A stretch of 64,000 nucleotides of DNA from the NCBI RefSeq assembly GCF_018599195.1, contig NZ_JAHFVK010000001.1, forward strand, positions 1,240,001-1,304,000, written 5' to 3'. The translations under genes were made by a program, and so were the position numbers. Below, one piece after another: positions 3,938 through 24,822 of this stretch; within the stretch, counting starts at the first letter, position 1; each line of letters starts with the position of its first letter. Below the pieces are notes generated by a model. It ran no database searches, had not been told where the DNA came from, and saw only the letters and a list, made by a program, of their open reading frames with translations. The DNA comes from Croceibacterium selenioxidans (lineage in GTDB: Bacteria > Pseudomonadota > Alphaproteobacteria > Sphingomonadales > Sphingomonadaceae).

Positions 3938-4720
3938 ATGGCCACCTTCACGCTTCCGACAAACAGCAAGATCACCGGCAAAGGCCGCGACCACAAAGCC
4001 CCGGGCGCGGCTCGTGTGCGCAAGTTCAAGATCTATCGGTGGGATCCCGAAAGCGGTGAGAATCCCCGCTACGATACCTTCGAGATCGACCTCGACCAAT
4101 GTGGCCCCATGGTCCTCGACGCGCTGATCAAGATAAAGAACGAGATTGACCCCACGCTGACCTTCCGTCGCTCTTGCCGCGAGGGGATCTGCGGATCCTG
4201 TTCCATGAACATGAACGGCCGCAACGGCCTCGCCTGCACTACTTCGATGGAAGATCTCTCTGGCGAAATCCGCGTCACTCCGCTGCCTCACATGGAAGTG
4301 GTGAAGGACCTCGTCCCCGACTTCAGCCAGTTCTACGCTCAATATGCATCGATCCGCCCATGGCTGCAGACCGTCTCGACCACTCCAAGTGGGAAGGAAC
4401 GCCTGCAAAGCCCTGAAGAGCGAGAAAAACTCGACGGGCTTTACGAGTGCATTCTCTGCGCCTGTTGCTCGACCGCTTGCCCGAGTTACTGGTGGAATTC
4501 GGACGTGTTCCTCGGCCCCGCTATCCTGCTCCAGGCCTATCGCTGGTTGGCCGACAGCCGCGACGAGATGACGGGTGAGCGCCTCGACGCGCTGGAGGAT
4601 CCGTTCCGCCTCTACCGCTGCCACACGATCATGAATTGCGCCAACGTCTGCCCCAAGGGCCTCAACCCTGCCAAGGCGATTGCCGAAACCAAGAAGATGC
4701 TGGCGGAGCGGCACGCCTGA
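3938..4720 (+). CDS. sdhB: Succinate dehydrogenase iron-sulfur subunit
   Basis: 260 aa, full length for SdhB. It carries electrons from the FAD of SdhA to ubiquinone at the inner membrane (TCA cycle and complex II). Cluster ligands are all visible: the [2Fe-2S] set in [21 protein letters not shown] (about residues 74-94), the [4Fe-4S] set [12 protein letters not shown] (about 170-181) and the [3Fe-4S] set [14 protein letters not shown] (about 228-241). AGGA lies about 8 nt before the ATG. The other sdh subunits are not downstream; sdhCDA are presumably upstream elsewhere or at another locus. The stop codon touches the likely start of zapE. Confidence 0.96.
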
Positions 4721-5826
4721 GCGGACTGCTTGAACGTTATCGCGCGCTCGTAGCTGCGGGCGAACTTCGGCCGGATCCCGCACAAAAGGCTGCGGCCGAA
4801 CGGCTGGAGGCGCTGCAGCACGCCCTTGAGGCGGTGCAACGCGGCGGCTTGCTCGGCCGGCTGTTTGGCCGGCCGAACCAAGCGAAGGGCCTTTACCTCT
4901 GGGGCGGCGTGGGTCGCGGGAAGTCCATGCTGATGGACTTGTTCCACGAAACCCTGGAGATCGAGGATAAGCGACGAGTTCACTTCCACGCCTTCATGAT
5001 CGAGGTCCACCAGCGCTTGCGCGAAGCGCGGAAGGCCGAAAGCGGCGATCCAATTCCGCAAGTCGCGGAAGCGCTGGCACGGGACCTGCGCTGCCTCGCT
5101 TTCGACGAGATGGTCGTCAACAACAGCGCCGACGCGATGATCATGAGCCGCCTGTTCCGAGCCCTGATCTGTGACAAGGGCGTCACAGTGGTCACGACCT
5201 CGAACCGCCCTCCCCGGGACCTCTACAAGGACGGCCTCAACCGCGAACATTTCCTGCCCTTCATTTCCCTGATTGAGCAGCAGCTCGACGTGATTGAGCT
5301 CAATGGGCCCGTCGACTATCGGCTCGAGCGCCTCGGTGGGATGGCCACTTGGTATTCTCCGGCCGACGGGCACGCCACCGCGCATTTGCGGGAAGCCTTC
5401 TTTCGACTGACCGACTATCCACCCGAAGATGCGGAGCACGTGCCCTCGGCCGAACTCGACGTTGGCGGGGGAAGGACGCTTCGAGTCCCAAAGAGCCTCA
5501 AGGGCGTCGCCGTGTTCAGCTTCAAGCGATTGTGCGGGGAAGCCCGCGGGGCGGCGGACTACCTAGCTGTGGCGAGGACCTATCACACGGTGATCGTGGT
5601 CGGCATCCCGATCATGGGTCCGGAAATGCGCAACGAAGCCGCGCGCTTCGTCACGCTGATCGACGCGCTCTACGAGAACAAGGTCAAGCTGCTCGCTTCG
5701 GCAGCGGCCAAACCCGAGGCGCTATATCCGACCGGGGACGGACGCTTCGAATTCGATCGGACGGTGAGCCGGCTCATGGAAATGCAGAGTGCCGACTATA
5801 TGGCCGAAGGCCACGGCGAGGTATAG
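4717..5826 (+). CDS. zapE: Cell division protein ZapE (AFG1-like AAA ATPase)
   Basis: AAA+ ATPase of the ZapE/AFG1 family; in E. coli ZapE associates with FtsZ under stress, and mitochondrial AFG1 is linked to respiratory complex quality control, which fits its place right behind sdhB. Walker [13 protein letters not shown] and Walker B LAFDEM are clear. The start is unusual: the conserved N-terminus ([16 protein letters not shown]) has no ATG, GTG or TTG before it. I place the start at CTG 4717, which overlaps the sdhB stop (CTGA) and has GGAG 9 nt upstream; the nearest canonical start is TTG 4636, deep inside sdhB. 369 aa with the CTG start. Function is firm, start is inferred. Confidence 0.88.
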
Positions 5827-6574: not shown

Positions 6575-7273
6575 ATGATCGAAATCCGTCCGTTCGCCGA
6601 GCTGGCGCATCGCAACCACGGCTGGCTCGACACTCGCTTTCACTTCAGCTTCGCGGACTATCACGATCCTGAGCGAATGGGCTGGGGGCGCATCCGCGTC
6701 TGGAATGACGACCTGATCGCGCCCAAGAGCGGCTTCCCGCCGCATCCGCACCGCGACATGGAGATCATCACGTTCGTCAGGAACGGAGCAATCACCCACA
6801 AGGACAGCATGGGCAACACCGGCCGAACGGGCGCTGGTGACGTACAGGTCATGAGCGCGGGAACGGGCGTTACCCACGCCGAGTTCAACCTCGAGGACGA
6901 AGATACCTCGCTATTCCAGATCTGGATCATGCCCGACCGTGCGGGAGAAGCTCCCGACTGGGGTCAGCGCGAGTTTCCGCGAGGCGATCGGGCAGGACGC
7001 TGGGAAGTGCTGGCAAGCGGTGATCCGGAGGGTGATGGCTCCCTGCCGATCCGCAGTGACGCGAAAATCCTCGCCGCCACAGTGCCTGCCGGTGAAACCG
7101 TGACTTACGAAGCGTCACCCTGGCGCCACCAATACCTCGTAGCGACCGGGGGGCAGATTCGTATCAACGGTCTCGAAGCCAACCCGCGGGATGGCATCGC
7201 CATTACCGGAGAGGAAGCGATCACCGTCGAAGCGATCGAGGACGTGGAATTGGTCATGGTCGACGCCCGCTGA
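6575..7273 (+). CDS. Pirin family protein (bicupin)
   Basis: 232 aa, close to the length of YhhW-type pirins. N-terminal cupin motifs HPHRDMEIITFV and ITHKDSMGN plus THAEFN supply the His/His/His/Glu metal ligands expected for a mononuclear iron site. Some relatives have quercetin 2,3-dioxygenase activity in vitro; the physiological role is generally unknown. The gene stands alone, 81 bp after the membrane protein gene, and is convergent with the RpfF-like gene 15 bp away. Confidence 0.9.
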   Translation: MIEIRPFAELAHRNHGWLDTRFHFSFADYHDPERMGWGRIRVWNDDLIAPKSGFPPHPHRDMEIITFVRNGAITHKDSMGNTGRTGAGDVQVMSAGTGVTHAEFNLEDEDTSLFQIWIMPDRAGEAPDWGQREFPRGDRAGRWEVLASGDPEGDGSLPIRSDAKILAATVPAGETVTYEASPWRHQYLVATGGQIRINGLEANPRDGIAITGEEAITVEAIEDVELVMVDAR

Positions 7274-7288
7274 GGGGCGAAGACGGCG

Positions 7289-8254
7289 TTAGGCGGCGGC
7301 TTTGTTGCCGACCCGTTGCTGAGCCCGGGTCAGTCGACCCATGACCTTTAGATCTCCATCGGTGAGCTGGAGCGCGGCATCGGCCCAAAGGTCGACAATG
7401 CGCTTCAGCTCCAGGAGATCGATGGGACTGGCCACGCGCATGGCCTTGCGCGCGTTCACGAGGCCCGGATGGCGACGTTCGGATTTCTGAATGAAGTCTT
7501 CGCAGACGGCCACGCCTTCGCCGTCTTCGGCCAGGTAATGGACCACCCCGAGGTCGTACATCTCTTCGGCTGTGTAAGTGCGGTTCGAAAGAATGAGCCG
7601 ATCAGCCATCGCGCTACCAAGCTTGCGTGACAGGATCGCGTGCGCTCCCATCCCAGGGAAGAGTCCGAACAAAATTTCCGGCATGCCGAACGTGGCGCTG
7701 CGTTCGGCAATGATGTGGTCGAACGACAGCAAGGCTTCGAACCCGCCCCCGAGCGCCGCGCCTTGCACAAGGCCAATGGTCAGCATCGGCAGATCGAGCG
7801 CGTTCATGTTGCGATGAAGGATTTCGACGCAGCGATAACCGTAGCGGGCCAGGCCGTCGCGGTCGCGATTGCGGATTAGCCGCTCGAACAGCTCAAGGTC
7901 GCCGCCGAAACAATACACGCCCGGAGCACGGCTGCCGAGGATCAGGTAGCGCAACGGCACCTGACCGGAACCGAAATTCTCAACGATCAGCCGCTGCCAA
8001 TCTTCGAAATCATGCAGCATCGAAGGCGTAAAGCTGGGCCTCCCCTCCGGACGCATGAAAGTCCAGAGCGCAGCGTGATTGCCTTGGTAAAGTACATCGA
8101 GTTCCGACAACTCGAACAGTTGCCGGTCAATACGAAGATGCCTGCTGCTTTCCTGGACAAGACGTTCTTCGCCCGGCCCGAAGCCAATCACACTATCGTC
8201 GGAATCCGACAGGCTTTCGTTCAAACGATCTAGCTGGCTCGACAGCCGATCCAT
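7289..8254 (-). CDS. rpfF: RpfF-like crotonase, probable DSF-family fatty-acid signal synthase
   Basis: 321 aa crotonase-fold protein that resembles Xanthomonas RpfF more than metabolic enoyl-CoA hydratases. RpfF makes cis-2-unsaturated fatty acids (diffusible signal factor) from 3-hydroxyacyl-ACP by dehydration and thioester cleavage. Both catalytic glutamates of RpfF are present with the same spacing: E173 in GGGFEALLSF and E193 in MPEILFGLFPGMGA. The downstream stretch RIVDLWADAAL and the ending KVMGRLTRAQ also match RpfF. The N-terminus is about 30 residues longer than in Xanthomonas. SD GGGGG lies 6 nt before the ATG. It sits just downstream of the exopolysaccharide operon in the same direction; no rpfC/rpfG sensor pair is in the window. 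Function is by similarity recalled, not tested. Confidence 0.75.
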   Translation of the reverse strand: MDRLSSQLDRLNESLSDSDDSVIGFGPGEERLVQESSRHLRIDRQLFELSELDVLYQGNHAALWTFMRPEGRPSFTPSMLHDFEDWQRLIVENFGSGQVPLRYLILGSRAPGVYCFGGDLELFERLIRNRDRDGLARYGYRCVEILHRNMNALDLPMLTIGLVQGAALGGGFEALLSFDHIIAERSATFGMPEILFGLFPGMGAHAILSRKLGSAMADRLILSNRTYTAEEMYDLGVVHYLAEDGEGVAVCEDFIQKSERRHPGLVNARKAMRVASPIDLLELKRIVDLWADAALQLTDGDLKVMGRLTRAQQRVGNKAAA

Positions 8255-8403
8255 AAAATACCCCCATGCAACCCACTGGAGTGCCAGCGCTTTTGTTCGT
8301 TTTAATGTGAGGGGATGCTATCATCACTTGTCTCATTGGCAACGAATTATTTGCCGGATCAGGGGCCGCCCAGTCCATGTTCCTAAAATGGCACATGACG
8401 GAG

Positions 8404-8423
8404 AATACGTAGTCTTACGTATT
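8404..8423. repeat. Perfect inverted repeat between the amidotransferase and rpfF-like genes
   Basis: AATACGTA, GTCT, TACGTATT: 8-bp arms with a 4-nt loop, placed immediately after the amidotransferase stop and about 150 bp upstream of the rpfF-like start. It is AT-rich in a GC-rich locus. It lacks a T-run on the minus strand, so it may be a weak terminator or a protein-binding site. The rest of 8255-8424 shows no gene. Confidence 0.45.
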
Positions 8424-8424
8424 T

Positions 8425-10323
8425 TCAGGCGAAAATGCCCAAACGAACGAGCGATCGTTCAAGCATCAGCAACTGCCAAAGCAGTCGAGAATTGTCGGCC
8501 AATCCAGAGGAATGCGCGGCTACCAGGCCGCCCAACAGGGTCTTGTCGAACCACTCCGAACGCGCCAGCGGGCTATTGGCGGTAAGCGCCCTGGCCTCGT
8601 TGGCTAGCGGACCACGCAACCACTCCTTGATCGGCGTCACGAAGCCCTGCTTGGGACGATAGAGGATGTCATCGGGCAAGTACCGACGCATGGCCTTCTT
8701 CAGCAGCCACTTGCCCTGCCCTCCCCGCACTCGCATTCGGTCGGGCAGAGCGGCAGCGAATTCGATGAGGCGGTGGTCGAGCAACGGCTCACGCGCCTCG
8801 AGGCTGACCGCCATGCTCGTGCGGTCGACCTTGGTGAGAATGTCTCCAGGCAGCCAGAACTTGAGATCGGCATATTGCGCGCGGTCGAGCCCGCTTTGCG
8901 ACGGGGCCTGGTTCATCATGTCGATCAGCGGCTGCTCGGCGCGGTAATCACCCAGCAATCGCCTTAACGCCGGAGCGTAAAGGCCCTCCCGAAGCTTGGC
9001 CGGCACGACGGAGAGGCCAAGCGCGTAACCGGACGAACCGTCACCCGCCAAGGATAGCAGCGTCGCCTTGGCTCGTAATGGTCGCGGAGCCCAGTCCGCT
9101 TTAGGATAGGCCCTCCCGAGCGGGCCGAGTACATTCCGGCGAAATCCCGCCGGAAGCAGGCCGCGCATCCTCTCTTCGTGGAAATGGAATACCTGTCGGC
9201 GATAACCGGCCATCGCCTCGTCGGCCCCGTCGCCGGACAGCGCGACCGTCACGCTCTCTCGCGCCAGCTGGCACACGCGCCAAGTCGGCAGAGCCGAAGC
9301 GTCGGCGAAGGGCTCATCGAACATGGTTGAAAGCGTTTCGAGGGCATCGAAGTCCTCCGAGCTGACCCGTCGCACGCGGTGATCCGTGCCGAACCGCTCT
9401 GCGATCTGCGACGCATAGGAGGTCTCATCGACCGCCGCCACATCGAAACCGATCGAACAGGTGCGCACCGGATCGCGGCTGGCCTCGGCCATCAGGGCGA
9501 CCACACTCGAAGAATCCACTCCCCCTGACAGGAACGCGCCGAGGGGAACGTCGGCCGCCATTCGGCTTGTGACGGCCTCGCGCAGGTGATGCAGCAGCTC
9601 TGCCTCGAGGTCTCGCTCCGAACCGCGGTGGCGTTGGGCGAAACTAATGTCCCACCATTTGACCGGCGGCGTGGCGGGCCTGTCATGCCTGAGCAAGCGG
9701 AAGTGGCCCGCGGGCAATTTTTCGACCCCCGCGAGGATAGAGCGGTGATCGGGCACGTAGCCCCAGGTCAGGTAGTCCTCGATCGCAAGAGGGTCGACGT
9801 CACGGCGCAGCAAGGGGTGCGCCAACAAGCCCTTCAATTCCGAAGCAAAAGCGAGGCTGCCATCGGAAAGAGGTGCCATGAACAGCGGTTTCACGCCCAG
9901 GCGATCGCGGGCAAGGAGCAACGTCTGCTGGCGCAGATCGTAAAGCGCAAAGGCGAACATGCCGTGGAGGCGCGAAAGACACTCGGCACCCCAACGTTCG
10001 TATGCCGCCAAGATCACTTCAGTATCGCCGCTGGTCCGAAACTGCGCACCCAGGCCTTCGAGTTCGGTCCGCAGTTCGCGAAAATTGTAGATCTCGCCGT
10101 TGAAGACGATGACCGAACGACCGTCGGCGGAGAGCATCGGTTGCGGAGAACCCGCAAGGTCGATGATCGACAGGCGACGGTGGCCGAGCCCTACGCCAGG
10201 TGCGGTCCAGACCCCCGCGCCGTCAGGCCCACGGTGGACAAGCGCGTCGCACATCCTTTCGACCCGCGCTGGATCGACCGGCTTGATCGTGCCGCAATGA
10301 AAAATCCCCGCGATCCCGCACAT
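8425..10323 (-). CDS. XrtA system-associated amidotransferase (asparagine synthetase-like)
   Basis: 632 aa with the asparagine synthetase B architecture. Cys2 after Met (MCGIAGIF) is the class II glutaminase nucleophile; the PP-loop SGGVDSSSVV near residue 265 activates a carboxylate by adenylation. Members found beside exosortase A are thought to amidate a sugar or peptide carboxyl during exopolysaccharide synthesis rather than make free asparagine; the true substrate is unknown. It begins 12 bp after the exosortase stop and is the last gene of the long minus-strand operon before the rpfF-like gene. Confidence 0.88.
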   Translation of the reverse strand: MCGIAGIFHCGTIKPVDPARVERMCDALVHRGPDGAGVWTAPGVGLGHRRLSIIDLAGSPQPMLSADGRSVIVFNGEIYNFRELRTELEGLGAQFRTSGDTEVILAAYERWGAECLSRLHGMFAFALYDLRQQTLLLARDRLGVKPLFMAPLSDGSLAFASELKGLLAHPLLRRDVDPLAIEDYLTWGYVPDHRSILAGVEKLPAGHFRLLRHDRPATPPVKWWDISFAQRHRGSERDLEAELLHHLREAVTSRMAADVPLGAFLSGGVDSSSVVALMAEASRDPVRTCSIGFDVAAVDETSYASQIAERFGTDHRVRRVSSEDFDALETLSTMFDEPFADASALPTWRVCQLARESVTVALSGDGADEAMAGYRRQVFHFHEERMRGLLPAGFRRNVLGPLGRAYPKADWAPRPLRAKATLLSLAGDGSSGYALGLSVVPAKLREGLYAPALRRLLGDYRAEQPLIDMMNQAPSQSGLDRAQYADLKFWLPGDILTKVDRTSMAVSLEAREPLLDHRLIEFAAALPDRMRVRGGQGKWLLKKAMRRYLPDDILYRPKQGFVTPIKEWLRGPLANEARALTANSPLARSEWFDKTLLGGLVAAHSSGLADNSRLLWQLLMLERSLVRLGIFA

Positions 10324-10335
10324 GAGGCGTGACCG

Positions 10336-11352
10336 TTAGGTCAGTTGACCGACGCGGTCCATCGCCGCGACGGTGACCGCCGTGGCAAACAGCAGGAACG
10401 ACAGCGCCCGCCATCCGCCAATTTCAAGCCTCGCCAAGGCCGAAAGCAAGGGTGAAGCCTGGATCGCCTTGGCATCCACCAGTTGATCCTCCGGCGATCG
10501 GTCAAAGAACCGCCAGGATGCGGCGAGCAAAACCCCCATGACGATTGCAAAGAAGAACCAGCCGTAGACGATGTGGTCGAACCCCGCGGCAAACTCCACA
10601 CCCCGGCTTTGCGCGACGTAGATCGTCCCCCAGGCGCGGACCCCGTTGGCAAGCACGGGAACCACGGCCGCGGCCGCCAGCCAGGCCAAGCGGCGCTTGC
10701 GGCTGGCGAAGCACAGGTGAGCCACGAGCGTTCCAAGCGCTATCATCGCAACGAGAAACTTCACGCCCGAGCAAGCCTCGGCCACTTCGAACAGACCCGC
10801 GGGTGTGTCGATGAACACCCCTTCGATCGTCGCCGGTACGTCGCTGGCGTGTGTGAGGGCGATCGCAAGCTTGGCCGTGATGGTCTGAAGGATGGGTACG
10901 ATCTCATCGCCGAAGGGCACCAGAAACAGCATGTAGCCGAGCGGGAAGACCAGCCCGGCGCTTACCCGGGCGCCCAGCACCGTCACCACCGCCGACTGGA
11001 GGAGAACCACCGCCCCGAGCTGGCTGACAAGGTTTATGTCCGCTGCCACTCCGCTTGACCACGCCAGCAATCCCGCGCCGAGCAAGCCCAAGCCCGGCCA
11101 CCAGGCTTTCGGATCGAGGCTCGATAGTTCCGGCCAACGTCCTGCAACCAGCCAAGCCAGGATCGCGGGAACCAGAAGGATGTGATTGTAAGTCGAGACA
11201 TCCCACCACTGGTGCGCCATCTCCGCCCAGTCCGGCCAAGTGAGCGCGATCAGTCCTACCCAAGCAAGGGTCAACTGCAGCAGGGGAATGCGCCATGCCC
11301 TGGGTAAGACACCCCAGACATTCACATCCGATATCGTGACCTCACGCGGCAT
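10336..11352 (-). CDS. xrtA: Exosortase A, lacking the EpsI (DUF3485) domain
   Basis: 338 aa polytopic membrane protein. The exosortase active site is complete: Cys194 in EACSGVKF, Arg239 in NGVRAWGT, His260 in GFDHIVYGW. Exosortases are transpeptidase-like enzymes that process PEP-CTERM proteins at the membrane. Many XrtA proteins continue into a periplasmic EpsI domain of about 200 residues; here the protein stops 15-20 residues into the last hydrophobic segment (ending MDRVGQLT) and the amidotransferase starts 12 bp later, so no EpsI can follow. Start ATG 11352 overlaps the glycosyltransferase end by 11 bp. No PEP-CTERM substrate is encoded in the window. Confidence 0.88.
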   Translation of the reverse strand: MPREVTISDVNVWGVLPRAWRIPLLQLTLAWVGLIALTWPDWAEMAHQWWDVSTYNHILLVPAILAWLVAGRWPELSSLDPKAWWPGLGLLGAGLLAWSSGVAADINLVSQLGAVVLLQSAVVTVLGARVSAGLVFPLGYMLFLVPFGDEIVPILQTITAKLAIALTHASDVPATIEGVFIDTPAGLFEVAEACSGVKFLVAMIALGTLVAHLCFASRKRRLAWLAAAAVVPVLANGVRAWGTIYVAQSRGVEFAAGFDHIVYGWFFFAIVMGVLLAASWRFFDRSPEDQLVDAKAIQASPLLSALARLEIGGWRALSFLLFATAVTVAAMDRVGQLT

Positions 11353-12574
11353 GGCGCCGCCTGTTGCGGTCTCGCGGGCGACCAACGATGGCGGGCAACG
11401 GCTCGAGCATCGCGCGCCAGCTCCGTTGCTCCACCACGATATCGCGTGCGGCCGTTCCCATGCGTGACGCCCGCTCTCGATCGGACAAGAGGCCCAGCGC
11501 GCGGCTGGCGATTTCCTGATCGGTGTCGGCGACAGCGAAGTGCGTTCCGTCGACTCCGGGCACCCCCGTGGCCGCGGCGGTCGTGAGTACCACGGGCCGC
11601 GCCATCGCCATGGCCTCCAACACCTTGTTCTGTACCCCACGCGCGATGGAAAGGGGGGCGAGCACCAGGTCGGCTCCGGACAGGAACGGGCGCACGTCCG
11701 GAACTTCGCCCCATACGCGCGAGCGGCACACGCCATCCCGGGCGACCAATTCGGGCGCCGGCGACCGACCGACTATGTGCAGCCTTGCTTCAGGCATCGA
11801 GGCAAGGACCCGGGGCATGATGCAATCGATCATGCGCAAGGCCGCTTCGACGTTGGGCGGGTAATCCATTTGCCCGGTGAAGACGATATTCGCCGCGCCC
11901 TCGACCAGCGCGGGATGGGTTCGCACCCTGCCGGGATTGAACGTGGTCGCGTCGATGCCATTGCCGAGCGCCGAAATGTTGGCCTTCACGCCTGCAGGTA
12001 GGCGCGACGCCAGCAAAGCCGCTTCCGCATCGCTAACCAGCAGGGTGTGCGTAGCCCTTGCCGCCAGTCGGGTCTCTTCGGCGCGCAACAGCCGGGCCTC
12101 GCGAGCGTTAACCCACCGCATCGGCATGGGCTTCTCGGCGGAATAGGCTTCGAACTTCGCGGAATCGACGTCGACAAGATCGACCACGAGCCGGCCGGTC
12201 CAGTCTTTGGGGACATATTGGCCCATCTGGCCCGAGAAGACGTAGACCGTGTCGATATCGGTGGTAGCCAGCATGAACCGGACCCACCGCGCCAGTTCGC
12301 GGTGCTCGAAGGCTTTGAGGCTCACCGGTTTTCCTGAGCAAAGCGCTTCCAGGCCTGCCAGCGCTAGCGGCTTGGTCCTCGCCGGCATGCAATAGCTGGT
12401 GCTGACTCGGGCCAGCTCCATCTCGCCGGCTCTCTCAGCCGCGGTATCCGCAAGGCAGCCGACGTAGACAGGCCCGAGGTTCGATAGCGCCTTGAGGATG
12501 TGGTGCGATCGGATCTTGTCTCCGCGGTCTGGCGGAAACGGCACGCGATGGGCCAGGAACAGCACTCCGCTCAT
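11342..12574 (-). CDS. XrtA system-associated glycosyltransferase (GT4-like)
   Basis: 410 aa. The N-terminus FLAHRVPFPPDRGDKIRSHH, the central NGIDATTFNP and FTGQMDYPPNVEA, and the C-terminal GVQNKVLEAMAMARPVV fit a GT-B retaining transferase of the PEP-CTERM-associated type. It should add a sugar to the lipid-linked exopolysaccharide repeat at the cytoplasmic face. Start ATG 12574 overlaps the FemAB stop (ATGA). It is the only glycosyltransferase in the locus. Confidence 0.88.
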   Translation of the reverse strand: MSGVLFLAHRVPFPPDRGDKIRSHHILKALSNLGPVYVGCLADTAAERAGEMELARVSTSYCMPARTKPLALAGLEALCSGKPVSLKAFEHRELARWVRFMLATTDIDTVYVFSGQMGQYVPKDWTGRLVVDLVDVDSAKFEAYSAEKPMPMRWVNAREARLLRAEETRLAARATHTLLVSDAEAALLASRLPAGVKANISALGNGIDATTFNPGRVRTHPALVEGAANIVFTGQMDYPPNVEAALRMIDCIMPRVLASMPEARLHIVGRSPAPELVARDGVCRSRVWGEVPDVRPFLSGADLVLAPLSIARGVQNKVLEAMAMARPVVLTTAAATGVPGVDGTHFAVADTDQEIASRALGLLSDRERASRMGTAARDIVVEQRSWRAMLEPLPAIVGRPRDRNRRRHAA

Positions 12575-13629
12575 CCAAGCCCCCTGGCGATTATTGGGCC
12601 GAGGCTGTTCGCGACCGGCAGCGGCAGCTTGCGCCACAGCGCGATGCGGGCAGCGTGCTTGCTGCTGGTAGGATCGGCGTCGCGCGCCTTCTGGCCGGGC
12701 GCGGTCCAGGCCGAGTAGGTCAGAGGTTCGGCCTCGAAGCCCCAATTTTTTTTGTAGGCGTGATTGCCGCTACCGGTCTTGCTGCGCCCAAAGTCGAACT
12801 GCATGAAGCCCTGGGTTCGGGCATGCAGCATAAGTTCGAAATACATCCGGTCGTTGGCCCTGAGGCCGCGCGCTGACCGTGTGCCGCCGCCCCAATAGGG
12901 CATGGCGGTCTCGCCATGATAGATGGTCAACACCCCCGCGACCGGTTCGCTCCGATGGCGAACCGTGAGTATGTCGGCGTCTAGTTCATCGAGTACCGCC
13001 TCGAATAGTTTTCGAGGGAACACCGGAGTTCCGAGGTTGCGTACGCTCTCGGAAAAGGTGGAATAGAATGCAGTCAACTCGGCCTGACGCGTGCCGACGG
13101 TGATCTCAAGATCGTTTTCCAGACCCTTGCGAACCTCGGCCCGCTGTTTTCGGGGGATCGCGGCGAGCTCGGCTTCGTCGTCCCACGCCAGTGCTTTCAC
13201 GAAACCACAGTGACTGTCGCTGCGCCGGGTCCAGGCGTCAGGAGAAAGCCCGCCCCGCAGTTCGATCGTCGAACACGACCGCCGCGCCGCGAGCTCCTCG
13301 GCTGCGCGGCATAATTGGAGTGAAGTGGCGTCCCGCTGGGCAAGAGGACCACCCCCGACCGCAAATCCGCTCGACGCCAGCATTCGGCCGAACACCGGCG
13401 AGTGAACTTCGCTCATGGGCAGCCATCCGGTCAAAAGGCCGCCCTTCTCTGCCACGAGCCCAAGCCCGCGCTGTCCCGTCCCGCGCTCGATCGCTCGCAA
13501 CCACGCAGGGCGGTGGAACACGCAACCTCCCAGGTCTGCCACGAACCCCTCAATCCGCGCGACCTCATCCGGCTGACGCAAGTCAGCAAGACGAACCCGT
13601 TCTGTGGTCAAGGCGAACGGTGCGTTCAT
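12571..13629 (-). CDS. FemAB-related XrtA system-associated protein
   Basis: 352 aa with a GNAT/FemAB fold: PYWGGGTRSARGLRANDRMYFELM and FDFGRSKTGSGNHAYKKNWGF are the hallmark stretches of this PEP-CTERM-associated FemAB family. FemAB enzymes transfer aminoacyl groups from tRNA to cell-wall peptides; the acceptor here is unknown, possibly an amine on the polysaccharide or on the product of the neighbouring ligase/carrier-protein genes. ATGA overlaps link it to the deacetylase upstream and the glycosyltransferase downstream. Confidence 0.85.
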   Translation of the reverse strand: MNAPFALTTERVRLADLRQPDEVARIEGFVADLGGCVFHRPAWLRAIERGTGQRGLGLVAEKGGLLTGWLPMSEVHSPVFGRMLASSGFAVGGGPLAQRDATSLQLCRAAEELAARRSCSTIELRGGLSPDAWTRRSDSHCGFVKALAWDDEAELAAIPRKQRAEVRKGLENDLEITVGTRQAELTAFYSTFSESVRNLGTPVFPRKLFEAVLDELDADILTVRHRSEPVAGVLTIYHGETAMPYWGGGTRSARGLRANDRMYFELMLHARTQGFMQFDFGRSKTGSGNHAYKKNWGFEAEPLTYSAWTAPGQKARDADPTSSKHAARIALWRKLPLPVANSLGPIIARGLG

Positions 13630-14555
13630 TCCGCCTCCGCCGCGACCCGATCGGCGTCGAGCCTTGCGCTTTCCCTATGGGCGAGGAGATCCATCCGGCC
13701 CCATTGAAACTCCCGCACCAACTGGCGGAGCTTGGGCGCCATCTGGTCGAGCTTGGTATAATGCCGCAGTCGCGATTTCAGCGGGGCCCCTGCGACCCGA
13801 GGCTGGCCCGGATCGATTTCCCACGGATGAAAGTAGAAGATTGCCGGACGCTCGTCGCGGCGATTGACCTGGCGGATCGCCCAGCGGCTGAAGGCATAGG
13901 GAAGAACCCGAAAGAACCCTCCGCCACCCGCCGCGAGCCGCTTTCCACCAAACAGGGCGGTGGTTACCGGAATCTCGATCAACGGCTTCCACGGCAGCGG
14001 CCGGAAGGCGAAGCGCGGCGCATCGGGCCAGCCATAGTGGTCATGATGGACCGGAGCCACGCTTGACGAATAGACGTAACCTTGCTCGGCCAGTTCCATG
14101 AACGCCCAGGGCGTGCGCCGGTCCAGAGAGAAGCTCGGCGCGCGATAGCCGGTGACGCGCAGGCCCGTCACGTCCTCCAGGACCTGACGAGCCCGTGAGA
14201 TATCTTCCCCGAACTCGGTCCGATCCATGGTGAAGACGCGCCGGTGATCCCACCCGTGGCTGGCGATCTCATGTCCGCGCTGTGCGACTTCCCGCAGAAG
14301 CGCCCCGTGGCGCTGCGCCACCCAGCCCAGAGTGAAGAACGTCGCCTTGGCCTCTACCTCGTCGAACAGGTCGAGGATTTCGCGCACGTTGCGATCGACA
14401 CGATCGGCAAGGTTCCCCCAATCCCCGCGCTCGATGACACTTTCGAACGCGCCGACCTGGAACCAGTCCTCGACATCCACGGACAGACCATTGACGATGG
14501 TGGCCCTCTCAACAGGGACCTCCATCGGTCGGTCGGGAGAAGTGACTGCATCCAC
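13626..14555 (-). CDS. XrtA system polysaccharide deacetylase
   Basis: NodB-homology deacetylase of the PEP-CTERM/XrtA type. LSVDVEDWFQVGAFE holds the catalytic/metal Asp, and HEIASHGWDHRRV holds the metal His pair; RAPSFS follows. The C-terminal FYFHPWEIDP segment is typical of the DUF3473-bearing members. It should remove N-acetyl groups from the growing polysaccharide. The start is unclear: GTG 14555 (AGGCG upstream) is used; ATG 14621 would overlap the ATPase gene by 40 bp, and ATG 14525 has no visible SD. About 309 aa from the GTG. Confidence 0.88.
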   Translation of the reverse strand: MDAVTSPDRPMEVPVERATIVNGLSVDVEDWFQVGAFESVIERGDWGNLADRVDRNVREILDLFDEVEAKATFFTLGWVAQRHGALLREVAQRGHEIASHGWDHRRVFTMDRTEFGEDISRARQVLEDVTGLRVTGYRAPSFSLDRRTPWAFMELAEQGYVYSSSVAPVHHDHYGWPDAPRFAFRPLPWKPLIEIPVTTALFGGKRLAAGGGGFFRVLPYAFSRWAIRQVNRRDERPAIFYFHPWEIDPGQPRVAGAPLKSRLRHYTKLDQMAPKLRQLVREFQWGRMDLLAHRESARLDADRVAAEAE

Positions 14556-14581
14556 GTTCGTCGCCTGCGCCGGAGCGGCCC

Positions 14582-15736
14582 TTAGGCCGCCCTCGCCTGA
14601 TCCATCTCGGTTTCCATCCATTCGATGAGCATGCCGAGCGTCTGTCGTACGGCTTGCTCTTGTTCCAAGAGACGAGCCTCCATGCGCGCCACTTGATCCC
14701 GCAAGGCGGTGACCTCAGGGGTAGAGGAAGCTTCGGTGGCCGATTTGAGATGGGTCGCCAACTCGATCACTGCGTCCTGCAGTTCGACGATCTGCGCGTC
14801 CCGCACTGCCAACAGGGTTTCGAACTCGCTCCTGTCCAACTGCTCGGGCTCGCCCATCGCCGCGGAAGGCTCGGTCAGAGGCTTGGGGCAGGTGACCTCT
14901 TGCGCGGGAATTTCGACGAACGTGCGCTCGCTTTCCATCTCGCTGACCACAGCCTGCAGCATTGTCGTGTCGATGAGGTTGCACTGCTCGACGGCACCAA
15001 GCAGCAACAGCCGGTTGGTGATCTGGTTGATGCGACGCGGGATGCCTCCGCTCGCCTCGTGCAATTGGGCAAACACTGCTTCTTCGAACTGCGGATTGCC
15101 GTTCCAGCCCACGAGCTTCAGGCGATGGGCGATGTAAGGCTCGACCTCGCCAACCTCCATCGCCTCGAGGTGGTGCGCAGCGATGACGCGCTGGCGCAAT
15201 TGCTCGAGGGCATCATGGCCCTGCAGTGTCGAACGGAACTCGGGCTGGCCAAGCAAAAGGGTCTGCAGGAGCGGATGATTGCCTAGCTGGAAGTTCGACA
15301 GCATGCGCAGCTCTTCCAGGGCGGAGACCGAGAGATTCTGGGATTCGTCGACGATCAGGAGACAGCGGCGGCCCGCCCGCGCCTCGTCGTGCAGGAAACC
15401 TTCGATGGCGCCGAGCGCGCTCGCTTTGTCGTGACCCTGAATTTCGAGACCGAAGCTCTGGGCGACGACGTGGACAATCTCCTTCTCGTCGAGCTTGCTC
15501 GTAACGACTTGCGCCACACTCAGTTGTGCCGGATCGACCGAGCCCATCAGATGCGCGACCAGCGTGGATTTGCCCGCACCGACCTCGCCCGTGATGACCA
15601 TGAAGCCTTCGCCCTGTGCCAGGCCATAGCCGAGGTATGACAGCGCCTTGCGATGGGTAACGCTGCGGAAATAGAAGGCTGGGTCAGGGGTAAGCTGGAA
15701 GGGCTTTCCTGTCAGGCCGTAGAATTCTGCAAACAT
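14582..15736 (-). CDS. XrtA system-associated ExeA/GspA-like ATPase
   Basis: 384 aa AAA ATPase. N-terminal FYGLTGKPFQLTPDPAF is the family signature, Walker A is TGEVGAGKST, Walker B is CLLIVDESQNL. A C-terminal coiled-coil-like region (residues about 320-380) with repeated Glu/Gln is rich in heptads. ExeA/GspA proteins energise assembly of outer-membrane channels across peptidoglycan; here the likely client is the export lipoprotein and beta-barrel of the same operon. The true partner is not shown by the sequence. Confidence 0.87.
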   Translation of the reverse strand: MFAEFYGLTGKPFQLTPDPAFYFRSVTHRKALSYLGYGLAQGEGFMVITGEVGAGKSTLVAHLMGSVDPAQLSVAQVVTSKLDEKEIVHVVAQSFGLEIQGHDKASALGAIEGFLHDEARAGRRCLLIVDESQNLSVSALEELRMLSNFQLGNHPLLQTLLLGQPEFRSTLQGHDALEQLRQRVIAAHHLEAMEVGEVEPYIAHRLKLVGWNGNPQFEEAVFAQLHEASGGIPRRINQITNRLLLLGAVEQCNLIDTTMLQAVVSEMESERTFVEIPAQEVTCPKPLTEPSAAMGEPEQLDRSEFETLLAVRDAQIVELQDAVIELATHLKSATEASSTPEVTALRDQVARMEARLLEQEQAVRQTLGMLIEWMETEMDQARAA

Positions 15737-15751
15737 TGCGATACCTCCGGT

Positions 15752-17392
15752 TCACCGGTCAAAAAAGGAATAGCGCAGGCCGAGGAGGGCCGATGCGGCG
15801 AGGAAATCGGGTACGTTGTCGCGGACCACACCATCGAGCCCGACGGCAGCAACGCCGCTCAGGCCGCGCAGGAGGTCGCGGTTGTAGGCCATCGACATAG
15901 AATAACCGGTCGACTTGCCGTCGCCTGCAAAGCCACTGTCGAACCAGTTTATCGACGCGCCTGCCGAGAACGACGAATAGAGATCGAGTTCGGTCGTGCC
16001 GTAGACCGCGGCCCAGACCATCTCGTCGGTCGCCCCGCTGACGTCGATCCCGCTGCCGGCGGCGGGAATGTACTTTCGCTGGTCGTAGCCCACGCCCGTG
16101 CTCACCCGCGTACGACCCAGGTCGAGCGAATGGCTGGCCATGACACCGCGGCTCTTGAACACCGACGAACGGAGCGAACCCAGGGCGCTGGCGAGACAGT
16201 TCCCGTTGTCCAGGCTTGCGACGCAACCGCCGACCTGGCCGTTGATGGGATTGACGAAGGCTTCGAAATTGGCCGGAAGGCCCGCGAGCTGGTTCACCAG
16301 TGCGCCGCCGAAGCTGGTCAGGTTGTCATAAACCGCGACGTTGTAGCTCTCCCGCGAATTGGGCGCATAGGAGAAGGTACCGTGGTAATTCATTGAGCCA
16401 TAGCGGTGACCGACATAGGCCTCGAGCGCCGTGCGCCGGCTCGGCCGCCACATGACGCCCGCATCCCAGATGAGACCGTCGGTCTGGTAGTCGATCCGAC
16501 GAGGCGAGCTTTGATCGGTCACGAAGCGACCATCCGGTCCAGCCAGGGGGTTGCCCGACGCATCGCGAACGACATCGCGGCTCGAAACCTCGACGTTTTC
16601 GAGCCCCACCCCTCCCGCCAGGGCGACTGTGGGGCTAATCGGCAGGATAGCGTCGGCGCGGGCATAGGCGTCGCGGATACGCTGATCGAAGTTAGAGATA
16701 TCTTGCTGCGTGAACCCACCGCCAGCACCGAATCCGAAAGGGGCGACCACGTCCGGACCGATGCCCGCGCGAGCCTGGGCCATATGGATCGTGCTCTCGT
16801 CGAAAATATCGGCGGGCCGCTGACCGGGCGCGACGACAATGGCGTCCGGCTCTTCGACCTTGGTGTAGCCAAAGCGGTAGTGCCCCTCCACCTCCACCTG
16901 ATCGACCATGGTATGCACCGAGGGGCCGGCATAAGCCGAGTAGATCTGGCTCGTGGAATCGTCGCTTACGAAGCCACCGAGCGAAGTCGATCCGTCCGCC
17001 TCCACGCGGGTGCGGGCGGCAAAGCCACCGGCTTCCATCGTCAGCCCTTCTGCCAAGGCTACCCCGGCCCGGGCGACACCACTCACGGTATCACCTCCGA
17101 CATCATCATCGTCCCAACCGATCCGGCGTTCATAGCGAAGCGAGACCGAAGCCGCGCTCCGCTTCCCGACGATCGAAGCGTCCAGTCCAACTGCCAGATT
17201 GGTCCAGGTAACCACGTCGTTCACCGGATCGATCTGCGCACTGACGACTTGGGCGGCTTCGATGTAGGGGACGACTTCGGTGTGGTAGCCGTCCGCATTG
17301 GTGGACAGCGCGCCATTGCCCGCCGCCTCAGCGGCGCCCGACAGGCCGAGCGCGGCCAGCGCGAGGACAAGGCGAAGCGCGCACTGCTTCAC
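15752..17392 (-). CDS. XrtA system-associated outer-membrane beta-barrel protein
   Basis: 546 aa. Signal peptide MKQCALRLVLALAALGLSGAAEA, then many amphipathic strands and repeated Tyr/Gly turns, ending YSFFDR with a C-terminal aromatic typical of outer-membrane proteins. Position and type agree with the TIGR03016-like PEP-CTERM-associated porins, proposed to help the polysaccharide cross the outer membrane. The start overlaps the kinase stop by 4 bp (ATGA), so the two are coupled. Confidence 0.78.
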   Translation of the reverse strand: MKQCALRLVLALAALGLSGAAEAAGNGALSTNADGYHTEVVPYIEAAQVVSAQIDPVNDVVTWTNLAVGLDASIVGKRSAASVSLRYERRIGWDDDDVGGDTVSGVARAGVALAEGLTMEAGGFAARTRVEADGSTSLGGFVSDDSTSQIYSAYAGPSVHTMVDQVEVEGHYRFGYTKVEEPDAIVVAPGQRPADIFDESTIHMAQARAGIGPDVVAPFGFGAGGGFTQQDISNFDQRIRDAYARADAILPISPTVALAGGVGLENVEVSSRDVVRDASGNPLAGPDGRFVTDQSSPRRIDYQTDGLIWDAGVMWRPSRRTALEAYVGHRYGSMNYHGTFSYAPNSRESYNVAVYDNLTSFGGALVNQLAGLPANFEAFVNPINGQVGGCVASLDNGNCLASALGSLRSSVFKSRGVMASHSLDLGRTRVSTGVGYDQRKYIPAAGSGIDVSGATDEMVWAAVYGTTELDLYSSFSAGASINWFDSGFAGDGKSTGYSMSMAYNRDLLRGLSGVAAVGLDGVVRDNVPDFLAASALLGLRYSFFDR

Positions 17393-18384
17393 TCCCCATC
17401 CCCACCGTATCCATAATAAGCACCGAAGCGGCGTCCGCTCGGGCTGAAATTGGCCGAATTCAACAGCAGCTTGATGTCGGGGCAGATCGACAGCAGCGAA
17501 AGCGCATCTTCCAGCGCTCTCTGCCCAGTATGATCCGCACGGCAGATCACCAGCGCCTGGCCCACGTACTTGGCCAGCTCCGCAGCCGGAGAGGCCGCGA
17601 GAGCGGGCGGAGAGTCGAATATGACGACGCGATTGGGAGCCCCGGCTGTCAGCCGGTCGAGCAAATCACGCGTATTACCGCTCGCTAGGTACTCACTGTC
17701 CGACGAGGTCCGGTTCCCAGCGGGAAGGACGAAGAACCCTGGAATGTCGGTGGCGATAACGCAGTCTTCGACGCGCACCGAGGGGTCGGCCAACGCGTCC
17801 ATCAGTCCCTTACCGCCCGAAAGGCCCAGCAGCGAGAGGATCGACGGTTTTGCGAAGTCGGCATCCACGAGAACGACCTCAGCGTCCTTCTCTGCGGCCA
17901 TGGTCAGCGCCAGGTTCATGGCACAGAAGGTCTTGCCCTCACCGGGCAACGGAGAGCTGACCAGGACCCGTTGCCTGTCAGGCGATCCGGCCCCTTCCGC
18001 CCGCATCGCGAGCAGGAGTTGGCGCTTCACGATGCGGAATTCCTCCACCAGCGCCGTCACCGGCCCATCGGGCACAACGAAACCCTGTTCAAGCAGTCGA
18101 CCACGGTCGATGGTCTGTTGCCCGCCTGAGAACTCCACGCGCTGGGCAAGCGCCCGCGGCGCCGAGGTGGCCGCTACGGGTGTTTCGGGCACGATCTCGG
18201 TCGCCTCGGGTGGCACCCCGGGCGGCACCGCCCGCCGAGGGCGATTGGCTGGCGGGGCGAGGACTGTCGGAACCGGCGCCGCCTTGAGTTCTCCTGGCGC
18301 ACCAAACAGGCCTTCGGCCCGCTCGAACAACGAACCGCCGCTGTCGCGCTGTCCGGGAAGCGGGATCTTGCTGTGTTCAGTCAT
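17389..18384 (-). CDS. XrtA-associated bacterial tyrosine autokinase (CpsD/Wze-like)
   Basis: 331 aa from ATG 18384. A disordered Pro/Ala-rich N-terminal third precedes the kinase. Walker A SSPLPGEGKTFCAMN, Walker A' VVLVDADFAKPS and Walker B VVIFDSPP mark a BY-kinase. The C-terminus is a Tyr cluster (AYYGYGGDGE), the usual autophosphorylation tail. It pairs with the chain-length protein encoded just upstream, the split Wzd/Wze arrangement, to control polymer length and export. Confidence 0.9.
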   Translation of the reverse strand: MTEHSKIPLPGQRDSGGSLFERAEGLFGAPGELKAAPVPTVLAPPANRPRRAVPPGVPPEATEIVPETPVAATSAPRALAQRVEFSGGQQTIDRGRLLEQGFVVPDGPVTALVEEFRIVKRQLLLAMRAEGAGSPDRQRVLVSSPLPGEGKTFCAMNLALTMAAEKDAEVVLVDADFAKPSILSLLGLSGGKGLMDALADPSVRVEDCVIATDIPGFFVLPAGNRTSSDSEYLASGNTRDLLDRLTAGAPNRVVIFDSPPALAASPAAELAKYVGQALVICRADHTGQRALEDALSLLSICPDIKLLLNSANFSPSGRRFGAYYGYGGDGE

Positions 18385-18394
18385 CCGACGCTCC

Positions 18395-19915
18395 TCAAGC
18401 CACCATGCTGCGCTGGATGAACTCGACACCCACGAGAACCACGAACAGGCCGCCGAGCGCCCCGGAAGCCATGACGAAGCGTTTCAGCTTGCGCCGTTGC
18501 AGCAGGCGGGCCGCGTCGGTCATCGTGTGCGAGATCGTGCCGATCACGGGCAGCTCGAACGTGCGTTCCAGTTTGGCCGCGGTAGCGAAAGTGCCGTTGA
18601 CCTGTCCCATCGCAAAAGCCGCCCCGCCACCGGCGCCGATTGCGATCACCAGCACCGCGAACAGCAACAGCGGACGGTTGGGAGCCGAAGGCACCCGAGG
18701 ACTGCTCGGCGGATCGATGATCTCAAACTTGATCGCGCTGCGCTCGGTCTCGACTTGTCCGCGCAGGCGGAGCTCTTCGCGGTCCTGGAGCAGTTTGTCG
18801 TACTGCGCGCGCAGCACTTCGTAGTCGCGGCTGATCCGCTGGGCTTCAGCTGCGGCACCGGGTTCCTGGGCCTGGCTCGCTAGAATTGAGGCGATCTCCG
18901 AATTCAGCGCCGCAGCCCGGGATTGCAGCGCCTGGACGTTAGCCTGCCGTTCGACTTTCATGGCCTGGAGCGAGGAGAAAGCCGGGTTTGGCGTTCCGCC
19001 TAGATCCGCCGCCGCTCCCTGCGCCTGAGGCCGCAAGGCCGCGATCTGCTTTTTCACGGCAACGACGTCAGGATGATTGTCAGTGAGTCCGCGGCTCTCG
19101 AGTGCCGCAAGGTTCGCCTCTGCCTGGGCGAGAGCCGCCCGAGGGCCACCGGTTCCACTGGTCACCAGCGTGCGCGGGGTGCCCGCGAGCTGCCCTTCAA
19201 TAGCCGCCAGGGCGGATTGCGCGGCGGCGAGGTCGGCGTCGACGCTGCGGAGCTCCGAGCGCGAGGCACTGAGCTGAGCCGAAATCGACGCCGCTCCGCC
19301 GATCAGGTCGGGATGCTCGGCCTCGAACGCCAGACGGCGCTGCTCGGCTTCTTCGAGTTCACGCTGGCGGTCGGCCAACTGCCGGTCGAGGAAGTCGATA
19401 GTCTCGCGCATTTCGCCCCGACTGCCGCCAAGGTTCTCCTCGCGGAAAATGTCGACCAGACGCTGCGCCATCTCGTGAGCGAGTTGCGCGTTGGCCGCGT
19501 CCGACAGGCTTCTGCGGCCGCTGGTAGCCGTGATCTGGAAAACGTTTTTATCGTTGGCGACGATCTTGATGTCCTCGGACAGGTCCTTGACCGCCTTCTC
19601 CATCTGGCTCGCGCCGGTTACGTTGTCGCCCAAGCGGGTCGAGCGCACGATCTTCTCGAGGTTGGCCGCGCTCGTCACCGTCTCGCGCACGCGGTCGATA
19701 TCCTTTTGCCGAGTGGCAGCGCCTATTCCGATCTGCTCGGCCAGGGCGTCATCGAGCTGGAGAAACAGCTTGGCCTCAGAGGAATAACTGTTCGGGATCA
19801 GGGCAATCGCCAACCATCCCAGGACGCACACGCCCCAGGCCACCGCCAGCGCCAGCCAGCGACGGTTCCAGACGGTCCAGAGGGCCGCCCGGAATTCTTC
19901 GAGTATGACGTTCAA
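18395..19915 (-). CDS. XrtA system polysaccharide chain-length determinant (Wzz/GumC-like)
   Basis: 506 aa inner-membrane protein. One N-terminal transmembrane segment (about 17-37, WLALAVAWGVCVLGWLAIALI) and one near 420-440 flank a long periplasmic coiled coil with many Ala/Gln/Arg heptads. A last hydrophobic stretch sits near residue 480. No kinase domain is fused; that role is supplied by the next gene 10 bp downstream. It should set polymer length and contact the Wza-like lipoprotein. Confidence 0.9.
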   Translation of the reverse strand: MNVILEEFRAALWTVWNRRWLALAVAWGVCVLGWLAIALIPNSYSSEAKLFLQLDDALAEQIGIGAATRQKDIDRVRETVTSAANLEKIVRSTRLGDNVTGASQMEKAVKDLSEDIKIVANDKNVFQITATSGRRSLSDAANAQLAHEMAQRLVDIFREENLGGSRGEMRETIDFLDRQLADRQRELEEAEQRRLAFEAEHPDLIGGAASISAQLSASRSELRSVDADLAAAQSALAAIEGQLAGTPRTLVTSGTGGPRAALAQAEANLAALESRGLTDNHPDVVAVKKQIAALRPQAQGAAADLGGTPNPAFSSLQAMKVERQANVQALQSRAAALNSEIASILASQAQEPGAAAEAQRISRDYEVLRAQYDKLLQDREELRLRGQVETERSAIKFEIIDPPSSPRVPSAPNRPLLLFAVLVIAIGAGGGAAFAMGQVNGTFATAAKLERTFELPVIGTISHTMTDAARLLQRRKLKRFVMASGALGGLFVVLVGVEFIQRSMVA

Positions 19916-19937
19916 CCGACCCCTCCCCTGAACCCGC

Positions 19938-20579: not shown

Positions 20580-20750
20580 GCCTTGCGTCCTTGCAGTGTC
20601 GGGCGAACGGCCGGCCTGGCGGCGTTCCGGGGGATAAGGCCCCTCATCGCCGGAAAGCGTGAACATTGCGTTAGTCTTAAACCCGAAAAGCCCGCGATTT
20701 CGCAGGTTACGGAAACGCCGTCCCGGTTCGGGACAGCGGCGGGCGAAACT
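20580..20750 (-). promoter_or_regulatory. Probable promoter region of the core export operon
   Basis: This 171-bp gap is the only sizeable break in the minus-strand XrtA operon. It begins with a terminator-like hairpin for the decarboxylase gene and ends with the SD of the export lipoprotein. I cannot assign a clear -35/-10; the tract around 20666-20690 (TTTAAGACTAACGC on the minus strand) is the AT-richest part and the best place to look. Confidence 0.35.
20711..20741 (-). terminator. Terminator-like hairpin after the PLP decarboxylase
   Basis: On the minus strand CGCC plus GTCCCG, loop AAC, CGGGAC plus GGCG (with a 3-nt bulge) is followed by TTTCC. It lies 10 bp after the decarboxylase stop. 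The T-run is short, so it may only attenuate transcription into the export operon. Confidence 0.5.
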
Positions 20751-23488: not shown

Positions 23489-23509
23489 GGTTTCCTGGAG
23501 TGCGGAAGT

Positions 23510-24496: not shown

Positions 24497-24522
24497 GGGC
24501 CGCGCAAGAAGGGGCCATGTGC

Positions 24523-24813: not shown

Positions 24814-24822
24814 TCTCTTCCA

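Follow-up and report, generated by a model that had tools for sequence, protein, structure and literature searches.

The exopolysaccharide locus of a sphingomonad raises the question addressed here: does a putative fatty acid signal synthase encoded at the edge of this locus belong to the polysaccharide machinery, or to a regulatory system of its own? The gene lies in a 64,000-nucleotide stretch of the Croceibacterium selenioxidans genome (the window; the genome, G000, comprises 4 contigs totalling 3.44 Mb). It codes for a crotonase and follows an XrtA/PEP-CTERM amidotransferase gene on the same strand after a gap of 170 bp. The initial annotation had correctly placed it downstream of and in line with the XrtA locus, although the interval given, 7289-10323, also takes in the amidotransferase gene (8425-10323). 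It had read the protein as an RpfF-like synthase of diffusible signal factor (DSF), forming one joined system with the acyl carrier protein (ACP) module of the locus. We find that the synthase tracks a sensor and not the XrtA system. A likely explanation is a DSF-type system leading from signal to cyclic di-GMP (c-di-GMP), whose synthase-receptor gene pair was split once in the window's clade.

Identity of the crotonase

By sequence, fold and phylogeny, the window crotonase is of the RpfF/DfsA type. It scores 340.8 bits against NF006452 (PRK08788), above the cut-off of 177, and a phmmer search of the sequences of solved structures returned four RpfF/DfsA proteins first (7e-53 to 3e-38), the next match lying at 2e-15. 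Its AlphaFold model has a predicted local distance difference test score (pLDDT) of 87.3; the N-terminal extension is variable, with pLDDT below 50 over residues 1-24. When this model was compared with known structures by Foldseek, ranks 1-12 were all RpfF/DfsA chains (5fus, 7zq7, 6dgn, 3m6m and 3m6n), with E values of 9e-21 to 4e-24 and template modelling scores, by target, of 0.92-0.94, while hydratases started at 1e-14. In a tree of 103 rows, obtained by a quick search and containing some long branches, 92 RpfF-type sequences were split with a support of 100 from 11 enoyl-CoA hydratases of relatives. A position inside the metabolic hydratases, named at the outset as the outcome that would speak against a DSF synthase, was not seen, and the assignment to the RpfF-like family was confirmed.

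The evidence first put forward for this assignment fared less evenly. The two glutamates E173 and E193 are indeed present, 20 residues apart, and the C-terminal LTRAQ region was found as MGRLTRAQQR, but both glutamates also occur in 11/11 of the hydratases of relatives. The pair is therefore not diagnostic, and its spacing was rejected as proof of RpfF. The motifs GGDL (residues 117-120) and FPGMGA (199-204) are more telling than the glutamate pair: the hydratases have AGAD in place of the former (11/11) and PGAGG or PGIGG in place of the latter (in the 10/11 listed). The tree, the fold ranking and these two signatures rule out that the protein is a metabolic enoyl-CoA hydratase. The enzyme thus adds a member to an established family, with a predicted cis-2 fatty acid as product.

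The NF006452 score and the presence of the crotonase in congeners mark the open reading frame as a genuine gene: four genomes of the same genus carry it at 98, 96, 79 and 75% identity (loci L012, L010, L013 and L011), and no match was found in a fifth, G002, which is 86% complete. The closest named relative is that of Porphyrobacter sp. BIN49, 96% identical (L031). Among 14 control genomes, the family search gave no match at E 1e-40; at E 0.001 11 of the 14 had a match, none of these above the cut-off.

The sensor partner of the crotonase

We surveyed 298 genomes of the window's family for the crotonase (E 1e-40) and the amidotransferase (E 1e-150), which were found in 102 and 213 of them, respectively. 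According to neighbourhood, 70 of the 102 crotonase genes are of the XrtA type seen in the window, and the others lie convergent with the gene of a large signalling protein, of type A in 21 genomes and of type B in 11, with a gap between -52 and 195 bp. In type A (29 loci), GGDEF and EAL are preceded by a membrane domain some 200 residues long that no Pfam family matches, and one of five proteins scanned (L040) has a PAS insertion. Type B (12 loci) has, in the two scanned, the RpfC layout of membrane part, HisKA, HATPase, receiver and Hpt. In 11 of these 12 loci the kinase gene is followed on the same strand by a gene for 715-758 amino acids, which codes for receiver-PAS-GGDEF-EAL in the two scanned.

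Profiles were built for the membrane domains of type A (A1) and of type B (A2, RpfC-type, built without Xanthomonas). In G610, whose crotonase is an RpfF equivalog, A2 matches the kinase encoded next to it at 5e-61. Homology between the two domains was considered and rejected, as hhalign gave it a probability of 0.4%. In the family set, crotonase and A1 occur together in 90 genomes, the crotonase alone in 12, A1 alone in 21 and neither in 175 (Fisher test, p 9e-42, phylogeny ignored). Eleven of the 12 genomes with crotonase only have the convergent RpfC-like kinase, and the remaining one, G163, is 77% complete. Hence 101/102 crotonase genomes have either sensor, and the GGDEF-EAL type is present in 21/196 of the others, where the kinase was not sought. 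Counted by genus, the crotonase occurs in 40, A1 in 40 and both in 36, the four crotonase-only genera being of type B. A1 was kept in 58/59 genomes with the crotonase directly adjacent to the amidotransferase and in 6/6 with the two near each other.

In the window genome itself there is a single A1 copy (C1:670197-670784, E 9e-49), within a candidate receptor gene encoded in trans. Pfam found only GGDEF and EAL in it and not the PAS-GGDEF-EAL order, no separate search for RpfR having been made in G000. A search of the genome for RpfC and RpfG homologues, which had been advised, returned neither an A2 match nor a PF13487 (HD-GYP, RpfG-like) match at E 0.001, and it was the membrane GGDEF-EAL protein that was found. 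In a chosen set of 48 genomes, all 41 of XrtA type, G000 included, have a strong A1 copy (with weaker extra ones in G004 and G102), while A1 is missing from 3/3 crotonase-negative genomes and from the type-B control G117, the only one of the 48 with an A2 match. The in-trans receptor gene lies directly upstream of a malate dehydrogenase gene (assigned by Pfam in G000) in 18/20 XrtA-type genomes, and in G000 genes for a CoA ligase and 2-oxoglutarate dehydrogenase come next. A model of the sensor domain (from L043; pLDDT 83.3) has six long helices. Comparison with solved structures by Foldseek and by VIA-align (best Z 9.9, generic helical bundles) gave no significant match and identifies the fold neither as a known one nor as novel.

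The pairing extends beyond the family. We examined 25 crotonase loci from a wider sample of the phylum (398 genomes, of which 63 have a crotonase) and 14 from one of the class (230 genomes, of which 16 have one). Among the 37 loci free of contig ends, a sensor stands alongside the crotonase in 36, within 200 bp in 35 and at 1.5 kb in one; 25 of these sensors are A2, 7 are GGDEF-EAL proteins without A1, 3 are A1 and 1 is another kinase. Three of the 36 pairs are head to tail and the others convergent. Nearly every crotonase examined thus adjoins a sensor, and the window's clade is the exception. A1 itself is rare in the class sample (3/230, one of the three being G333, which has no crotonase match). 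Within one other family of the class (f9), loci L185 and L186 contain diverged crotonases head to tail with an A1-type membrane GGDEF-EAL gene immediately downstream, and L186 has aspartate for the first glutamate. Many of the crotonase matches in the phylum sample come from small genomes (1.2-3 Mb) of family f43, and at the two f43 loci examined fully, L187 and L188, the crotonase converges on an RpfC-type kinase gene, with HD-GYP present as well at L188.

The trees of the two partners agree in large part. The XrtA-type crotonases (36 rows, near-copies dropped) form one clade (99) within the clade partnered with sensor A (99), their nearest groups being L073/L074, then L083 and L068/L076. In the tree of receptors (73 rows), those encoded in trans and those of crotonase-negative genomes form one clade (100), with L073/L074, then L083, then L068/L071/L076 as nearest groups. 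The receptors of crotonase-negative genomes, 17 of the 21 having been fetched, have about ten independent origins within that clade. For 9 of 10 synthase losses the branch of the receptor exceeds those of neighbouring crotonase-positive receptors, one case being nearly tied (sign test, p 0.011), and median root-to-tip distances are 0.98 for crotonase-negative versus 0.68 for crotonase-positive receptors. Receptors thus change faster after the synthase is lost. Altered forms of the GGDEF motif (AGDEF, GSDEF) occur in 6/17 crotonase-negative receptors versus 0/23 in-trans and 0/29 convergent ones, which is suggestive only, as the six belong to about three lineages. The receptor genes L216, L220-L225 and L227, from crotonase-negative genomes, show altered GGDEF (AGDEF, GSDEF) or DDFGTG motifs, and their branches are mostly longer, which would fit decay or a change of role.

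The XrtA locus as a probable inherited position

In 59 of the 102 crotonase genomes the gene immediately follows the amidotransferase gene, in the same orientation, and in 6 more it follows at a distance of 3-5.4 kb. A further 29 have the two genes far apart or on different contigs, and in 8 no amidotransferase was found at E 1e-100; by neighbourhood, one of the 29 (G256, where the contig breaks off) and four of the 8 (G004, G143, G295 and G307) are also of XrtA type. The proposed conserved linkage to XrtA loci holds, therefore, as direct adjacency in 59/102 genomes, but 32/102 crotonases lie away from such a locus. Across the family, co-occurrence of crotonase and amidotransferase is weak (93/102 versus 120/196, odds ratio 6.5).

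Genomes without the crotonase were informative. From 67 listed genomes bearing the amidotransferase and lacking the crotonase, 20 were picked by hand. The site is closed up in 18 of them, the amidotransferase abutting pirin or a gene that we take to be zapE, with 6-227 bp between the matches; in G280 and G139, about 5 and 2.7 kb of other DNA, respectively, separate it from the far side. The acyl ligase TIGR03098 was retained in 18/18 crotonase-negative genomes tested. Conversely, four genomes without amidotransferase retain crotonase, sensor and acyl ligase, and G210, with a convergent pair, is without the ligase. The XrtA locus was not found to be lost and kept as a unit with the crotonase. 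Because crotonase-negative relatives keep the acyl ligase and mostly show a closed-up site, the idea that the crotonase and the acyl-ACP module form one joined system is not supported. One displacement event, after which the crotonase was inherited jointly with the flank of zapE and of a gene presumed to be sdhB, accounts for the XrtA-type placement in a single clade. As part of the explanation that we favour, the XrtA neighbourhood would be mainly an inherited position.

Some variation at these loci was also observed. L079, L080, L081 and L088 are XrtA loci without the amidotransferase in which crotonase and acyl ligase are retained, the last three having lost further genes. In L101 a flippase-like and two acyltransferase-like genes (labelled by eye) stand between crotonase and zapE. 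In some genomes, for instance G005 (C9:558006, C10:328282), the XrtA-type amidotransferase is present in another copy at a separate site.

The gap upstream of the crotonase contains a promoter-like element, found with the pattern TTGCCA, 15-19 bases, TAnnnT, which in strict form occurs once in the window (0.5 expected). The strict pattern is present upstream of the crotonase in 26/38 linked loci and a loose one in 29/38, compared with 0.09 and 1.3 in letter shuffles. Without duplicate records (L032=L088, L036=L099, L041=L054, L040=L181) the strict count is 25/36. At type-A convergent loci the strict pattern was found in 0/29 and the loose one in 1, and at type-B loci in 0/12 and 2, respectively. 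This distribution suggests that in the window's clade the crotonase is probably transcribed separately, from its own promoter-like element. That the crotonase transcript comes solely from the amidotransferase operon was rejected, though not disproved, in view of the 170-bp gap and the conserved element. Upstream of the in-trans receptor the strict pattern was found in 0/20, so that there is no sign of a site common to synthase and receptor.

The features of the locus are listed below. Most of the named XrtA families score above their cut-offs in the window, with TIGR03016, TIGR03018 and TIGR03101 below; the outer-membrane protein and tyrosine kinase are both below theirs, and exosortase-associated hydrolase 2 is a weak match, also below cut-off. 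The TIGR03109 match begins only at residue 154, so the true start of XrtA is probably well downstream of that of the open reading frame. The distance from the crotonase to the acyl module, at the opposite end of the XrtA locus, is about 12-18 kb. Neighbouring genes at the loci were called with a simple open reading frame picker.

Features of the crotonase locus in the window, and the candidate receptor gene elsewhere in the genome
Feature	Position	Strand	Remarks
RpfF/DfsA-type crotonase, predicted DSF-family synthase	7289..8254	-	ATG start; 321 amino acids; E173/E193, GGDL 117-120, FPGMGA 199-204
Promoter-like element TTGCCA-N16-TAGCAT	8315..8342	-	61-88 bp upstream of crotonase start
XrtA/PEP-CTERM amidotransferase	8425..10323	-	TIGR03108, 948 bits, cut-off 817; conserved upstream neighbour in one clade, dispensable for crotonase
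Exosortase A (XrtA) open reading frame	10336..11736	-	TIGR03109 match, residues 154-412
Remaining XrtA exopolysaccharide locus	11342..23551	-	Glycosyltransferase, FemAB-like, deacetylase, ATPase, outer-membrane protein, tyrosine kinase, chain-length and export proteins
Pyridoxal phosphate decarboxylase	20751-21977	-	XrtA locus
Acyl-CoA ligase	21974-23551	-	XrtA locus
Remaining acyl module	24373..26258	+	Phosphopantetheine-site protein, exosortase-associated hydrolases 2 and 1
Small phosphopantetheine-site protein	24373-24813	+	Acyl module
Pirin	6575..7273	+	Convergent with crotonase, where other lineages carry the sensor gene; variably present in relatives
Open reading frame labelled zapE	4636..5826	+	Marker for the opposite flank of the site in relatives
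Candidate receptor, membrane GGDEF-EAL	~G000:C1:668886-670781	-	Start uncertain; six membrane helices, GGDEF and EAL

A probable displaced synthase and its candidate receptor

In the split signalling system that we consider likely, the synthase would take acyl-ACP from fatty acid synthesis and, by means of E173 and E193, release a cis-2-unsaturated fatty acid in free form, as a signal of the DSF family. This signal would be sensed by one membrane GGDEF-EAL protein encoded elsewhere in G000, whose six membrane helices are predicted to be joined directly to GGDEF-EAL, so that binding would raise or lower the c-di-GMP level in one step. An ancestral convergent pair, as in the sister lineages, would have been split in the ancestor of the window's clade, leaving the synthase between the XrtA amidotransferase gene and zapE and the receptor upstream of malate dehydrogenase. 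The displaced synthase would then be transcribed from its own promoter, and any effect on exopolysaccharide would be exerted via c-di-GMP. In type A neither an FI nor a receiver domain was seen in Pfam, no FI model being at hand, and the membrane part runs into GGDEF. Therefore, we would expect a one-step receptor that leaves the synthase unbound; this may explain how the two genes were able to separate. We incline, with little more than even confidence, towards a broader proposal: that DSF-family signals have a third receptor class, in which a six-helix membrane domain leads directly into GGDEF-EAL and which forms a pair with RpfF in sphingomonads and in Methylobacterium, and that the pair, split once with the synthase coming to lie beside the XrtA locus, may link cell density to polysaccharide via c-di-GMP.

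Several observations weigh against this account. The window crotonase reaches 204.8 bits against the NCBI RpfF equivalog NF053515, below the cut-off of 550; two crotonases adjoining RpfR-like genes are likewise below it (184.1 and 180.8 bits), and that of G610 (L143), with an RpfC-type kinase alongside, is above it (580.2 bits), the equivalog being narrow. No Pfam family matches the sensor domain, its best Foldseek E value is 0.057, and A1 profile scores are lower for in-trans receptors (139-186 bits) than for the convergent ones of the family (223-286 bits). At L184 no sensor was found alongside the crotonase, and G333 (L250, C8:515238) has an A1-type membrane GGDEF-EAL protein (E 1e-26) and no crotonase match. 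Sensor A is present without a crotonase match in 21 genomes, four of which are less than 90% complete (G002, G015, G179 and G272), and the receptor may therefore have another ligand or use; a receptor without synthase either is not useless at once or can sense the signal of neighbours. The trees conflict on L072/L077, placed next to the XrtA clade by the crotonase (84) and as outermost sphingomonads by the receptor (95). Finally, both genes are old in the clade and the Fisher tests ignore phylogeny, for which reason the losses bear most of the weight.

A joined XrtA system, in which the synthase supplies or uses the acyl groups of the acyl-ACP module or its signal is dedicated to the locus, would fit the same-strand adjacency in 59/102 genomes and the weak co-occurrence with the amidotransferase. 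We regard it as unlikely, given the retained acyl ligase (18/18) and closed-up sites (18/20) of the crotonase-negative genomes, the four genomes that retain the crotonase without amidotransferase, the 32/102 crotonases off XrtA loci and the promoter-like element of its own; moreover, the zapE and sdhB side is equally conserved, as expected of frozen synteny. There is also a small chance that the RpfF-fold enzyme was repurposed after the split, as an acyl-ACP or acyl-CoA thioesterase or as a hydratase in lipid turnover, and that the receptor took another ligand. The split itself, the lower receptor profile scores in the window's clade and the 21 genomes with receptor and no crotonase match would agree with this, but the active-site signatures are retained, the receptor was kept in almost all adjacent (58/59) and near (6/6) genomes, and its branches lengthened after 9 of 10 synthase losses. 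An ordinary beta-oxidation enoyl-CoA hydratase, located here by chance, would share the crotonase fold and both glutamates, and is nevertheless very improbable, being contradicted by the tree, the fold ranking, GGDL and FPGMGA, and the near-constant pairing with signalling proteins.

The inferred system resembles known ones in part. DSF signalling has been described in Xanthomonas, Burkholderia and some other bacteria, and its receptors follow two core designs (PMC4504480). The RpfF-RpfC-RpfG system of Xanthomonas has synthase family and fold in common with the window crotonase, and PDB entry 3m6m is a complex of RpfF with the RpfC receiver; G000, in contrast, is without an A2 kinase or PF13487 match. 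The family's type-B crotonases, convergent with an RpfC-like kinase and a further gene, resemble the Xanthomonas layout described in PMC4504480, but the second gene codes for receiver-PAS-GGDEF-EAL in the two loci scanned (L063 and L049), where Xanthomonas has the HD-GYP protein RpfG. Type-B loci, found in sphingomonads and a Beijerinckiaceae genome (L063:3243-7975, L049:1784-6540, L075:8866-13475), may represent a separate two-component variant of DSF signalling. In the RpfF-RpfR system of Burkholderia and Cronobacter, the synthase fold is alike (5fus, 6dgn) and the receptor is, as here, one GGDEF-EAL protein; GGDEF-EAL genes without A1 stand beside the crotonase at 7/37 of the assessable sampled loci. 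RpfR senses via a PAS domain and holds the synthase via an FI domain (PMC4504480, PMC6361424), whereas sensor A has a six-helix membrane domain leading straight into GGDEF, without PAS in 5/6 scanned, and the two genes are apart in the window's clade. RpfF enzymes both make cis-2 fatty acids and cleave acyl-ACP broadly, a cleavage inhibited by the FI domain of RpfR, according to PMC6361424. DspI of Pseudomonas aeruginosa, of crotonase fold and needed for cis-2-decenoic acid (PMC4504480), ranks among ordinary hydratases against our model (5wyd, E 3e-13), outside the RpfF group. Compared with the XrtA/PEP-CTERM exopolysaccharide locus, whose named families are next door, the crotonase is not a required part.

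Among the open-access titles listed by our literature searches we found none on RpfF in sphingomonads, on a membrane GGDEF-EAL receptor for DSF or on an RpfF split off beside an XrtA locus, and the text of one of the papers listed may mention the subject. The genomic evidence indicates that many sphingomonads carry a DSF-type synthase travelling with its own membrane GGDEF-EAL protein. Adjacency to the exopolysaccharide locus was a misleading clue in this case and co-occurrence a better one. The pairing gives a receptor candidate, a class of ligand and, in the synthase-less relatives, natural knock-outs, with which a one-step membrane receptor becomes testable.

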